Assembly (NCBI RefSeq): GCF_000285275.1
Contig: NZ_CADO01000003.1
Coordinates: 1-64,000 of the forward strand
From: Acetobacter pasteurianus subsp. pasteurianus LMG 1262 = NBRC 106471
Lineage (GTDB): Bacteria; Pseudomonadota; Alphaproteobacteria; Acetobacterales; Acetobacteraceae
Direction of reading: 5' to 3'
Length of the DNA stretch: 64,000 bases
A model generated the notes under the pieces. That model had not been told where the DNA came from. It worked only from the letters and a program-made list of their open reading frames with translations, and made no database searches. Below are positions 38,151 to 55,399 of this stretch, in pieces (within the stretch, counting starts at the first letter, position 1; each line of letters opens with the position of its first letter). Position numbers and translations under genes: made by a program.

Positions 38151-38265
38151 GCCGCCTTATTCCTAACCGTGGTCTGAATTCAGACCTCCATACTCCATAG
38201 CGCCCCTTGGATGCCAGCCCGCAGATACCACTGCCACACGTTGTAATTTTCTTGGCGTAAACACC

Positions 38266-38294
38266 TTGCGCAGCCTTACACTCCTGCCTATGTT
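38266..38294 (+). promoter_or_regulatory. candidate ssrA promoter
   Basis: TTGCGC (38266-38271), a 17-base spacer and TATGTT (38289-38294) lie upstream of the tmRNA acceptor piece. Transcription would start near 38301. Confidence 0.4.
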
Positions 38295-38340
38295 TGGGGT
38301 GTGAGAAGTTCGCTTCTGACTATGGCAATAAACGGGATAT

Positions 38341-38600
38341 GGAATAGGCGTAGTGGACCCGGGGGCGGTACCCGGCGTCTCCACCAATCATCCGGCCTTG
38401 CAAAGGTTTGGACAGATGGGGACGAAATAGGCTCGACACGCGCAGTAAAGATGTTCTTTTTGCCCGGTATTGTACCACCGTTATCGGGCTATTTTTACAA
38501 GTGCCAATGATAACACTGAGGTGCTCGCTGTCGCTGCATAAGCGATAAGCGCGGTTCGGGAGGGCACCGGGCAACAGAAGCCCTCCCACCTCATTTTCCA
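38341..38600 (+). ncRNA. ssrA: two-piece (circularly permuted) tmRNA
   Basis: The acceptor half comes first, ending in a T-arm (CCGGG-GGCGGTA-CCCGG) and an encoded CCA at 38384-38386. The coding half begins at 38418 with GGGGACGAAATAGG; its first seven bases pair with CGTCTCC before the CCA to make the acceptor stem. GGAA...GTGG at the acceptor 5' end can pair with CCAC...TTCC at the coding 3' end. The intervening 31 bases would be removed. This is the alphaproteobacterial layout. It rescues stalled ribosomes and tags the nascent chain. End points are approximate. Confidence 0.93.
38503..38541 (+). other. tmRNA tag-peptide reading frame
   Basis: Starting at the resume codon GCC (38503-38505) the frame encodes ANDNTEVLAVAA and ends with TAA. 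The AND start and hydrophobic VAA end are the SspB- and ClpX-recognised parts of alphaproteobacterial tags. Confidence 0.93.
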
Positions 38601-52510: not shown

Positions 52511-53107
52511 ATGCACAAAGAGCCAGAACCCGCGTGGAAGCCACAGCCGCAACCTCAGGCTGCAGATAAACCCTCTGGCGTGCGCATGGCTCTTATAGGG
52601 CTGGCAACATGCGTGATCATGGCCGGAGCTGGCGTGCATTTTATGGGAGGCGGGCATGGAAATACCGCCACGCCTGCTGCAGAAAACAATACGCAAGACC
52701 ATGATAACAGCGCGAACCGAATGGGGATTCCCCTCACGCTGATTGCCTCGCAAAAAGCGGCCCAAACCTTAGCCAAATCCAATTACACGGATCAGGAACA
52801 GGCGGATATTCTGGCAGGCATAAAGCGGCGGGATATTCGTTTGGTAGCCATGCCTGTTTACGATGCCACAGGCGCTGGTGGCACCATTACGCTTATTTGC
52901 GGAGCATGGCACCAAACTGTGCATTTGTCCCCTACTCCGCAAACCGTCATTCTACCCATTACGATAAGTGGCAATGTTGATATCATACCAGCATCAGACC
53001 CCGGGCCTGCGGGTATTGGTAGCGGTGCCATTACGGTATTTGGCCCACAAACACTGCCGATTATGTATAAAGGGGATACTTTGCCACTAACGGTGATTGC
53101 GCAATGA
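52511..53107 (+). CDS. single-pass membrane protein of the AAA+ cluster, unknown family
   Basis: The 198-residue product has a short Pro/Gln-rich cytoplasmic head, one membrane helix (about 25-46) and an outside domain of about 150 residues with a beta-rich second half (GGTITLICGAWHQTVHLSPTPQTVILPITISGNVDII). No known domain is recognised. Its stop overlaps the start of the AAA+ gene by 4 bp (ATGA), so the two are translationally coupled and probably made in matched amounts. It could be a substrate, receptor or regulator of that ATPase. Confidence 0.75.
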   Translation: MHKEPEPAWKPQPQPQAADKPSGVRMALIGLATCVIMAGAGVHFMGGGHGNTATPAAENNTQDHDNSANRMGIPLTLIASQKAAQTLAKSNYTDQEQADILAGIKRRDIRLVAMPVYDATGAGGTITLICGAWHQTVHLSPTPQTVILPITISGNVDIIPASDPGPAGIGSGAITVFGPQTLPIMYKGDTLPLTVIAQ

Positions 53108-54387
53108 AGGGACTGCTACCCGCCCTAAACCGGCTGATGCCGTTGATGATGGTCATCTTTCTGGTGCTTGCCAGTATTCAGATTGCCCTCAGCCTGCATC
53201 TTTCCCTGCATTCCATTACGCATGTTTTGCAGTGGTGCGCTCCAGCATGGCCGATTTTAGCCGTAAGTGGCATTATACTTACAGTAGCAGGGCTGCTGTT
53301 TGAAACACGCGCCGAAAAGCTGGCGCGCAAAGGGCTTTTACGCCGACGGGGATTCATCATGGACGTTCTTGCCAGACTGACCAACCGCGCCGCACTGGAA
53401 GAAATGATGGCGCGCGAGCAGCGTGAAACCACCATTGATGCGGAAGAACTGGCAGCCAACCTGCGCGCCCGCGTTATTGGGCAGGATCAGGTATGTGAGG
53501 ATGTGGCTGTGCAGTTGCGCCGCCGCCTTGCCTTGCAGGTGCGTGGTAAACCAGTAGGCATTTTTCTGCTGGCTGGCCCCCCGGGCACAGGCAAAACCTA
53601 TCTGGCCAAGCAGCTTGCCCGCCAGCTTGAACGCCCCCTGCTGCATTTTGACATGACACAGATGAGCAGCCCCCACGCTGCAACCCAACTGTTTGGCTCT
53701 CCCAAAGGTTATGTGGGTTCAGATACTTACGGGAAGCTGACTGGTGGCCTGAAGGAAAAACCCGATGCCGTTGTATTGCTGGACGAAATTGAAAAAGCAC
53801 ATCCTGATGTGTTCAAAAAGTTCCTGACAGCCTGGAACGACGGACACATTACCGAAGCCTCTACCGGGCAGCAGATTTCCACCGTACGCGCCATTTTTGT
53901 GCTGACATCCAACATCGCCACGGATGCGCTCACAGAAATTGCAGACCGCCTGCATGATGACCCGGACCGTATGCGTGCCGAATCGGTAGAAGCCCTGCGT
54001 CAGGCCGGATTTGCCCCGGAAGTTCTAAACCGGTTGGATCGCATTTTCGTCTTCCGTCCGCTACAGGGGCTGGATATTGCCCGCGTGGCTGCGCTGGAAA
54101 TTGAAACCATGATTGAAAGCTACGGCCTGAAGGTAGAAACCGGCGGGATTGATGCCACCCTGCTGATGGATGTGATGCGCCGCCAGAGCCGCATGGGGGA
54201 TGCAGCTTCTGCCCGCGATCTGGTGCGCTCCATTGAAGATATGATCAGCGAATCCCTGATTGTGGCCCGCCAGCAGGGTGCCAATATGGTGCGGTTGGTG
54301 AAGGAAGATGATGGCGCAGTGGTTGCAAAAGTGGCGGATAACCGCACGGATGAAGGCGATGGCATTCATGCGCGCCTGATCCCATAA
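53104..54387 (+). CDS. membrane-anchored Clp/HSP100-type AAA+ ATPase
   Basis: The 427-residue protein begins with two transmembrane helices (about 10-30 and 48-66), then one AAA+ module of ClpA/ClpB D2 type. Its motifs are Walker A GPPGTGKT (158-165), pore loop GYVG (202-205), Walker B VVLLDEIE (223-230), sensor 1 LTSN (267-270), arginine finger in LNRLDR (308-313) and sensor 2 near Arg371. It has no Clp N-domain, first AAA module or ClpB middle domain, and no evident IGL/IGF ClpP loop. It therefore looks like a tethered unfoldase. It sits between two unknown single-pass membrane proteins. Confidence 0.88.
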   Translation: MKGLLPALNRLMPLMMVIFLVLASIQIALSLHLSLHSITHVLQWCAPAWPILAVSGIILTVAGLLFETRAEKLARKGLLRRRGFIMDVLARLTNRAALEEMMAREQRETTIDAEELAANLRARVIGQDQVCEDVAVQLRRRLALQVRGKPVGIFLLAGPPGTGKTYLAKQLARQLERPLLHFDMTQMSSPHAATQLFGSPKGYVGSDTYGKLTGGLKEKPDAVVLLDEIEKAHPDVFKKFLTAWNDGHITEASTGQQISTVRAIFVLTSNIATDALTEIADRLHDDPDRMRAESVEALRQAGFAPEVLNRLDRIFVFRPLQGLDIARVAALEIETMIESYGLKVETGGIDATLLMDVMRRQSRMGDAASARDLVRSIEDMISESLIVARQQGANMVRLVKEDDGAVVAKVADNRTDEGDGIHARLIP

Positions 54388-54430
54388 GCGGCCCCTTACT
54401 GTTTATTCTTCCGGCACAAGGCTGTTCTGC

Positions 54431-55399
54431 ATGTCTGCTTTTACCCGATTGTGGCAACGCGCTCCTGTTTGGCGTGTAGCACTATTTACCGCTGGCGCAT
54501 GCAGTGTGTTTTCCGTGATGTTTCCGGCCCCTTGGCTGACATCACGCCTGCCAGCCTATGCAAAGCTTACCTCCAAAATCAGCCATATGCTGCCTAGCGG
54601 TGCATCATCTACCGATTCGTCAGAAGATGCGTTGCGGCCGGATGAAGACCGGCGCACCGTTTCTGCACCCCCTATGGATGCACAATTTGAAGGCACATTA
54701 TCCTTTGCAGGCCGCCAGCTCCCCTTGCCCGCTGGCAAGTGGCACCCGCTTTTGAATTATCAGGATGATGTTGCGCATGGGGAAATTCTGACATCCCTTT
54801 ATGTGCGTTCCGAACAAGGCATTGTCACAGGCCTCTTGGTTGCACAGGCCACCACGCAATCCTTACCCATTACGGATACGCAGTTGGTGCAAGATGAATG
54901 CCACAGCAACTTCAACTTTATGTCCGAAGCCTTGCCACAGGATGGCACGCATACAGAATGCTGGATGACATCCCCTATTCGGGTTGTGAACAACGTTTTC
55001 CTGACATCCAACCCTGCATTACAGGCCTTGCTGGGCAGCCCCATGTTTATTCCCCCAGCAGTGCAACGCCTGACAGGCATGGGCTTTGATCTGCCACCAG
55101 TTTTGGTAGACGCGGGATGGAACCGGATTGAAAAAAGCAAATCCGGCCCAGGTGTGGATTTCATGAGTGTTCACATGCTGACAAGCCCGGCAGAAGCGGG
55201 CAGCAAAACCGTACCGGGTGCGCCAGAAAACTGGTCCCGCGCAGGTATGTCCGATTCGTCTGCAGTGTCAGATTTTGTCCACCGCACCAACGCATGGCTA
55301 CGCGGATGGGGCCCTTACCTGCGCCAAGGGTTTGATAGCAAGCTTCCCGATACTGCGCTGCCCACCACTGTATCGGCAGATCCTGCGTTCCACGGTTGA
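54431..55399 (+). CDS. signal-anchored protein of the AAA+ cluster, unknown family
   Basis: The 322-residue protein has one N-terminal membrane helix (about 15-35) and a polar, Ser/Asp-rich linker (55-85). An outside domain of about 230 residues follows, with cysteine-containing stretches (QDECHSNFNFMSEAL, HTECWMTSPIRVVNN). AAGG lies nine bases before the ATG. It follows the AAA+ gene by 43 bp on the same strand with no terminator, so it is probably part of the same unit. I do not recognise a family. Confidence 0.72.
   Translation: MSAFTRLWQRAPVWRVALFTAGACSVFSVMFPAPWLTSRLPAYAKLTSKISHMLPSGASSTDSSEDALRPDEDRRTVSAPPMDAQFEGTLSFAGRQLPLPAGKWHPLLNYQDDVAHGEILTSLYVRSEQGIVTGLLVAQATTQSLPITDTQLVQDECHSNFNFMSEALPQDGTHTECWMTSPIRVVNNVFLTSNPALQALLGSPMFIPPAVQRLTGMGFDLPPVLVDAGWNRIEKSKSGPGVDFMSVHMLTSPAEAGSKTVPGAPENWSRAGMSDSSAVSDFVHRTNAWLRGWGPYLRQGFDSKLPDTALPTTVSADPAFHG

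Follow-up and report, generated by a model that had tools for sequence, protein, structure and literature searches.

How does an ATPase of the Clp family come to sit in a bacterial membrane, and with what does it work there? The question is raised by three genes in the first 64,000 nucleotides of contig NZ_CADO01000003.1 of Acetobacter pasteurianus (the window, that is, the whole stretch of DNA analysed): gene A (52511–53107), gene B (53104–54387) and gene C (54431–55399), all on the + strand, as are the features located below. Clp/Hsp100 unfoldases are usually seen as soluble, and FtsH is regarded as the bacterial membrane AAA+ machine. B (427 amino acids, aa) is a membrane-anchored AAA+ ATPase of the Clp D2 type, A (198 aa) is a single-pass protein, probably with a short N-terminal tail, one membrane helix and a periplasmic domain, and C (322 aa) is a further single-pass protein. 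An earlier note, made from the letters of the window, had described them as a cluster, and the cluster is real, the open reading frames (ORFs) being confirmed and all three being under purifying selection. B and C form the core of the system and A is an accessory; beside the constant ATPase, C keeps a constant tag-plus-helix segment with exchangeable outer parts, which is the main new observation. A familiar machine of the cytoplasm thus appears to have been refitted for work at the envelope, in vinegar bacteria and in scattered other bacteria. If a membrane-built Clp-type ATPase with a dedicated single-pass partner is true, bacteria would have a second route for pulling envelope proteins.

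First of all, B is of a known kind, a Clp-type AAA+ protein, and what is new in it is the membrane anchoring, the dedicated tagged partner and the lack of a protease. Its Pfam match is AAA_2 (E=9e-37, 127 bits); in NCBIfam it matches ClpB (E=1e-51), with only profile positions 533–847 of 853 aligned, that is, the D2 half, and the D2 half of ClpA (E=6e-49), while among solved structures its sequence comes nearest to ClpE, ClpB and ClpC (PDB, from 7e-43). The AAA_2 fold, Walker A and B, GYVG loop, arginine finger and sensor 2 of the Clp/Hsp100 D2 type are all present. The conserved sites, which we take to be Walker A (GPPGTGKT, 53575–53598, residues 158–165), the pore loop (GYVG, 53707–53718, residues 202–205), Walker B (LLDE, 53776–53787, residues 225–228), sensor 1 (N270), the arginine finger (R310, 54031–54033) and the sensor-2 arginine (R371, 54214–54216), coincide in alignment with those of the ClpB and ClpA encoded in the same genome, which bears out the complete AAA+ module described earlier. 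In an alignment of 20 diverse members, K164, Y203, D227, E228, N270, R310 and R371 are invariant, and T165 is replaced by S in one. A family signature, FLTAWNDGxxTEAS (53821–53862, residues 240–253), is kept in the family and differs in ClpA and ClpB. The genome's own ClpB and ClpA share 39% and 31% identity with B where they match it (residues 116–336 for ClpB), and no second copy of B was found in this genome, the search returning ClpB, ClpA and one weak further AAA match.

Compared with the ClpB/Hsp104 and ClpA D2 ring, B shares the AAA_2 module, Walker A/B, GYVG, the NR(L/I)D arginine finger and sensor 2, but it has a single AAA module instead of the plan of two modules and an N-domain, lacks D1 and the middle domain as well, and has a membrane hairpin, a diverged small domain and fixed membrane partners. 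The earlier claim that two membrane helices have replaced the Clp N-terminal half agrees with the D2-only profile coverage and with hydropathy, which gives two segments (about residues 11–29 and 48–66, peaks 2.48 and 2.13) within a hairpin at 53134–53301 (residues about 11–66). A positively charged segment follows the hairpin, and by the positive-inside rule the AAA module would be cytoplasmic. The linker between the hydrophobic segments and the AAA module carries the family motif MDxLxRLTNR, and B ends shortly after the AAA small domain.

Such a plan recalls FtsH, a ring anchored in the inner membrane by a pair of N-terminal helices, with its AAA module in the cytoplasm. B would share with it the inner-membrane ring, the two N-terminal helices and the cytoplasmic AAA module; however, B belongs to the Clp D2 (AAA_2) branch and is without a protease domain, no protease family, and hence no FtsH-type zinc metalloprotease domain, being among the Pfam matches listed (25 of 42). 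The ClpA of the same genome has VGF between sensor 1 and the arginine finger, and in the alignment with it B has no ClpP-docking tripeptide, (I/V/L)G(F/L), in that interval, as the earlier note had remarked. Relatives were taken from a GTDB contig scan with a family-specific stretch, which could find a genome only if it contained either of two exact peptide patterns (one being FLTAWNDG); of its 192 relatives the best 80 were kept as named loci, and these lean towards Microvirga, whose copy came first in the query. In 74 of them (five of the other six escaped the Walker A pattern, two reading GNPGTGKT and GHPGTGKT and another being L062, and one had no usable start) the tripeptide pattern matched twice, in L116 and L121; both matches directly precede PEVLNR and so are not at the site of ClpA's loop.

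Could B nevertheless pass the proteins that it extracts to a separate enzyme, FtsH or some envelope protease, for degradation? Proteases are common partners of Clp D2 unfoldases, B is located at the membrane, and in locus L070 the next gene is of the TraB/PrgY/GumN family, which we take to include TIKI-type proteases. That gene, however, is not a constant neighbour of the module in the map of clustered neighbour genes. Ten neighbour proteins around five loci outside the Acetobacteraceae are ordinary chromosomal families that differ from locus to locus (ispD, ispF, truD, mfd, MerR, fructose bisphosphatase (FBPase), GGDEF, TonB-like, TraB/GumN and arabinofuranosidase), so that A-B-C looks like a complete unit; TraB/GumN apart, no protease family is among them. 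Taken together with the lack of the ClpP tripeptide in B, this makes a feeder of degradation distinctly unlikely.

The constant companion of B is C. In the Acetobacteraceae sample searched by tblastn, C stands beside B in 29/29 loci and A in 24/29; in 20 larger regions of this family, hand-chosen from 34 genomes with B and overlapping with the 29 loci, C follows B every time, one copy being truncated. When the 80 named loci were searched with a profile, C turned up downstream of B in 78, and L096 reaches the contig end with a partial C. A lies upstream of B in 67 of the 80; of the remaining 13 loci, two (L062 and L101) have hardly any sequence on that side, and in the other 11 (of 78 with an upstream flank) no six-frame match to A was found. 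Because C is near-constant, and A is absent from 11 of 78 loci and from three further copies treated below (L036–L038), B and C are taken as the core and A as the accessory. The conserved synteny expected by the earlier note therefore mostly holds, nearly throughout for C and less regularly for A, so the three genes are not equal; homologues of B that routinely occur without both flanking genes, which it had named as an objection to its own proposal, are not what is seen. In seven further relatives no C match appeared in a run without a positive control, an outcome that by itself shows nothing.

Since the same neighbours recur across genera, the grouping of A, B and C is more than chance. The module stands beside rimP-nusA in 16 of the 20 Acetobacteraceae regions, and in the four others (L047 and L049–L051) A-B-C has different flanks, so that it moves as a unit. 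In locus L087 a second ATPase-like ORF (L087:259–1230), about 4 kb upstream of the module, was considered as a second B and rejected, being a MoxR-type AAA_3 protein.

What marks C is its N-terminus. Hydropathy gives one membrane segment (residues 13–34), and the tag LWQRAPVWR (54449–54475, residues 7–15) runs into this helix; the consensus of such tags is LWxRAPxWR, followed by a membrane helix. A tag pattern was found in 77 of 78 C ORFs, a partly circular figure to which we return, and in 1 of 4936 other ORFs of the same loci, a figure that is not circular; the search took no account of whether an ORF comes directly after B. The C without a pattern match is that of L128, where the segment reads LWRRSAKFK, and the sole non-C ORF with the tag is a second C-like gene beside B in L116, where a tandem pair of C-like genes (L116:4963–6059) stands behind a single B. 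In the window's genome C is the sole tagged protein found (the next best match, E=0.03, is in a 54-aa frame), which suggests that the tag marks a dedicated partner and is not a signal of clients in general.

Behind the tag and helix, C is anything but constant. The ectodomain in the window (54653–55396, residues 75–322) is of a type with LPLPxGxW and two cysteines, C157 being present in 90% or more and C177 in all of 61 aligned sequences; these were drawn from 78 candidates, the others being identical, longer than 420 aa or (14) of other ectodomain types, and the C of L025 was left out of the alignments because the coordinates used for it extended beyond a stop codon. An unrelated ectodomain, GRVVGFL...CHYIPNL, occurs in Acidithiobacillus, Sulfuriferula and related metagenome-assembled genomes (MAGs), where A was not found. 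Four loci of this Sulfuriferula/Acidithiobacillus type (L065, L093, L104 and L106) have B with the CHYIPNL-type C and no A, and in L093, L104 and L106 two genes follow the module, identified in L106 as ispD and ispF. In Aureimonas and Microvirga splendida C has a proline-rich tail after the helix, and in five other Microvirga almost nothing, the whole protein being 61–82 aa as called. For the window's C, the AlphaFold2 model (mean predicted local distance difference test, pLDDT, 83.9) shows a mixed alpha/beta ectodomain with no match in the PDB at E<=0.001. The best match, 3ddv, presumably a UTRA-type sensor domain of a GntR-family regulator (E=0.01, template modelling score by target length, TMt, 0.38), and those to Mog1 (E=0.045) and IcmK/DotH (E=0.43) are weak and were kept as leads only.

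A single-pass C whose tag on the membrane side is constant and whose periplasmic parts vary is what would be expected of a transmission shaft, and it may be asked whether the ATP cycles of B move C (and A) and so power work in the periplasm with no threading of substrate, much as an ATPase of the inner membrane can drive a complex in the envelope. Against this, the intact family keeps its pore loop, G202, Y203 and G205 being invariant in the 20 members, and the short Microvirga C has almost no periplasmic part to be moved; the idea is unlikely. A broader reading, which we regard as speculative and would give a rather low but appreciable chance, is that an unrecognised class of envelope machine exists, in which a membrane Clp motor has LWxRAPxWR plus helix as its standard socket, different periplasmic tools are plugged in, and in some lineages a motor-dead complex is kept as a scaffold.

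A is likewise a single-pass protein by hydropathy (one segment, residues 24–44), and the earlier statement that A and C each cross the membrane once and belong to no known family still holds, since there is one hydropathy segment in each and neither gave a significant match in Pfam, NCBIfam, PHROGs, PADLOC, PDB sequence profiles or PDB folds. The only NCBIfam listing of A is MsuE at E=0.15. Its ectodomain (52727–53104, residues 73–198) is modelled by AlphaFold2 as a helical element and beta strands, mainly beta, with pLDDT of 93–98 per block of ten, and has no PDB fold match at E<=0.001; a glucanase (E=0.016), vCBM60 (2xfd, E=0.05, TMt 0.43) and C2 domains were weak matches, kept as leads only. 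Judged by the models, the ectodomain folds of A and C are new or too diverged to name. The A alignment holds 64 of 67 candidates, the other three being identical to rows kept or longer than 420 aa. In four Microvirga loci (L056–L059, at about 4.8–5.3 kb of each) a conserved ORF of 128–153 aa lies directly upstream of B, in A's place; its L056 copy has no match in Pfam (E<=0.001) or NCBIfam (E<=1e-5).

Does the B-C pair need its motor at all? In three small-genome Acetobacteraceae (L036, and L037 and L038 of one other genus) the motor core of B, at about 9.0–10.4 kb of each locus, is damaged. In L036, L037 and L038, respectively, T165 has become K, N and K, and D227 has become N, K and Q; the GYVG loop is deleted and K164 remains. 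The arginine finger and sensor 2 are also lost in L037 and L038, and L036 keeps both. The Pfam AAA_2 score falls from the 127 bits of the window to 41.7 in L036 and 20.6, below the cut-off, in L037, and L038 has no listed match. The reading frames of B are intact all the same, and linker, small domain and C are kept; A was not found in these three, the positive controls L035 and L061 being detected. Between L037 and L038 the motor stretch (residues 150–300) is 37% identical, against 66% in the linker and 59% in the small domain, and between the intact L035 and L036 the figures are 47% against 70% and 59%. The sequences suggest, that is to say, that the motor has been released from selection in L036–L038 while the rest of B and C seem to be held. 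These natural motor-dead versions are a ready test of the ATPase's purpose.

Persistence of linker, small domain and C beside a decaying motor is the argument for a B-C complex that is mainly structural and merely tuned by the ATPase. On the other side, the motor stretch is 79–88% identical in four intact pairs and the best-kept segment in three (in the fourth, L029–L033, it is 82% against 85% in the small domain). The three genomes are also small, and the system may be disappearing from them, as it seems to be from genome G126 (L031): there the N-terminus of B seems not to match those of its relatives, C is shortened to 112 aa, and the system is apparently in decay. A scaffold in the first place is quite improbable.

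The tentatively favoured reading, held with slightly less than even confidence, is that B is a membrane-anchored Clp unfoldase or dislocase with C as its obligate adaptor and A as an accessory. B would assemble into a ring of the Clp type that its helix hairpin holds to the inner membrane on the cytoplasmic side; polypeptides would be engaged and pulled through its GYVG-lined pore, and by this pulling inner-membrane or envelope-bound proteins would be extracted or remodelled, with no built-in or ClpP-type protease taking part. The tag of C, at the inner leaflet, and the helix after it would dock on the membrane or linker region of B, and the exchangeable periplasmic part of C may sense or hold a lineage-specific target. 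Where A is present, it would be an accessory, coupled to B in translation, and its periplasmic domain would contribute to recognition. What the sequences themselves show is the motifs, the hydrophobic segments, the missing ClpP tripeptide, the constant adjacency, the tag and the variety of ectodomains; ring assembly, topology, docking by the tag, pulling and substrates are inferred. The machine for pulling or remodelling proteins at the inner membrane that the earlier note had proposed thus fits the anatomy, so far as sequence can tell, and to it are now added the conserved tag of C, the exchange of ectodomains and the natural motor-dead versions.

Several observations weigh against this reading. 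By the evidence of the motor-dead copies, the B-C pair does not need ATP-driven pulling for everything that it does. Locus L102 (L102:3740–5320) has an unrelated Sel1-repeat protein in C's place behind B, with A kept upstream. The 77 of 78 for the tag is partly circular in that tagged proteins were the source of the C profile, which could miss an untagged C. Lastly, sensing by C has no structural support from the models, in which the folds of neither A nor C gave a significant match.

Among known systems, Torsin is a single Clp-like AAA+ protein that works with the membrane-bound partners LAP1/LULL1 (PMC4358337, PMC4999309). B shares the single Clp-like AAA+ subunit and the membrane-bound partners; the Pfam Torsin model gives 24 bits on B, below the cut-off of 27. 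Torsin differs in that it acts in the lumen of the endoplasmic reticulum and that LAP1 has an AAA-like fold with a conserved arginine, whereas B has its own R310 and, among the 50 structural matches listed for C, there is no AAA structure. Msp1/ATAD1 is a membrane-anchored AAA+ that extracts membrane proteins (PMC12793716). Membrane anchoring is the likeness to B, and extraction serves as the working model for B. Msp1/ATAD1 belongs to another AAA clade, is eukaryotic and is not known to have coupled partner genes of this kind. No system of this kind is named in the parts of the literature covered by the search, and a word search of Gluconobacter main texts, supplements aside, gave no mention of such an ATPase; the gene set is apparently undescribed.

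How widely is the system spread, and does its spread betray its role? B was found in 34 of 150 sampled Acetobacteraceae genomes, in 22 of 102 genera, and in 46 of the 49 genomes from the window's genus (both at E<=1e-60, own included), two of the three without it being genomes of 1.5 and 1.7 Mb. In class- and phylum-wide samples it occurred in 2 of 385 (E<=1e-52) and 2 of 398 (E<=1e-70) genomes, both times the window's own genome and G056 of the same family. A restriction to the Acetobacteraceae, the family in which the earlier note had proposed to look for the three genes, does not hold, as 25 of the 80 kept loci are named outside the family and 8 more are labelled only Proteobacteria or Rhodospirillales. 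The outside carriers are Microvirga, Aureimonas, Paraburkholderia, Burkholderia, Trinickia, Dyella and Pseudomonas sp. TH31, together with MAGs labelled Ralstonia, Sulfuriferula, Acidithiobacillus, Accumulibacter, Nitrospira and others, labels that may be wrong. In the B tree, the Pseudomonas copy clusters with five copies from Burkholderiaceae (100/97), to the exclusion of the Ralstonia-labelled one (97/72), a placement that points to horizontal transfer; no root was read, the outgroups being on very long branches and L004 not being a Clp D2 control.

A mobile three-gene unit with a membrane ATPase, scattered in this way outside its family, might be an anti-phage defence cassette, and the best PADLOC matches of B are indeed the PDC-M37B and DolB ATPases. 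Yet these cover the generic AAA domain only, those systems have no counterpart of A or C, and A and C match nothing in PADLOC, so a known anti-phage system was rejected. Within the genus B is nearly core, in most Acetobacteraceae regions it keeps its rimP-nusA address, no defence gene is among the ten neighbour proteins scanned, and no relative was found in viral contigs; a role in defence is very improbable. Phage origin was rejected as well, because viral contigs hold no relative and phage records match the AAA part alone: their matches (25 of 147 listed) are at most 36% identical and start at residue 85 or later. Among the 40 listed of 2124 matched plasmid records, only the copy of Microvirga sp. 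VF16 stands out (51%). The names of several carriers (acetic acid bacteria, Acidithiobacillus, P. acidicola) hint at acidic settings, in agreement with the acid stress raised in the earlier note; it is a hint from names alone, with no base rate behind it, and Microvirga does not fit.

In the window, the stop of A and the start of B overlap by the four bases ATGA (53104–53107), and translational coupling of the two is likely; among the 67 related A-B junctions, with start codons picked by script, 36 have a 4-base and 9 a 1-base overlap. A gap of 43 bases separates the stop of B from C. The module is oriented away from rimP and nusA (− strand) and towards a LysR-type gene that runs against it, and promoter- and terminator-like matches at the locus are not more frequent than in shuffles. 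The nearest named relative in the tree is the vinegar bacterium A. pomorum (L091), against which the ratio of nonsynonymous to synonymous substitution (dN/dS, Nei-Gojobori) is 0.052 for A, 0.013 for B and 0.035 for C, that is, strong purifying selection on all and slowest evolution in B; its AAA region is 100% identical over 295 columns and the whole ATPase 99.1%. For the degenerate copies pairwise dN/dS was not used, dS being saturated or infinite. Elsewhere in the window, positions 38262–38588 hold an alphaproteobacterial transfer-messenger RNA (Rfam alpha_tmRNA and tmRNA_permuted), for which ARAGORN gives the tag ANDNTEVLAVAA.

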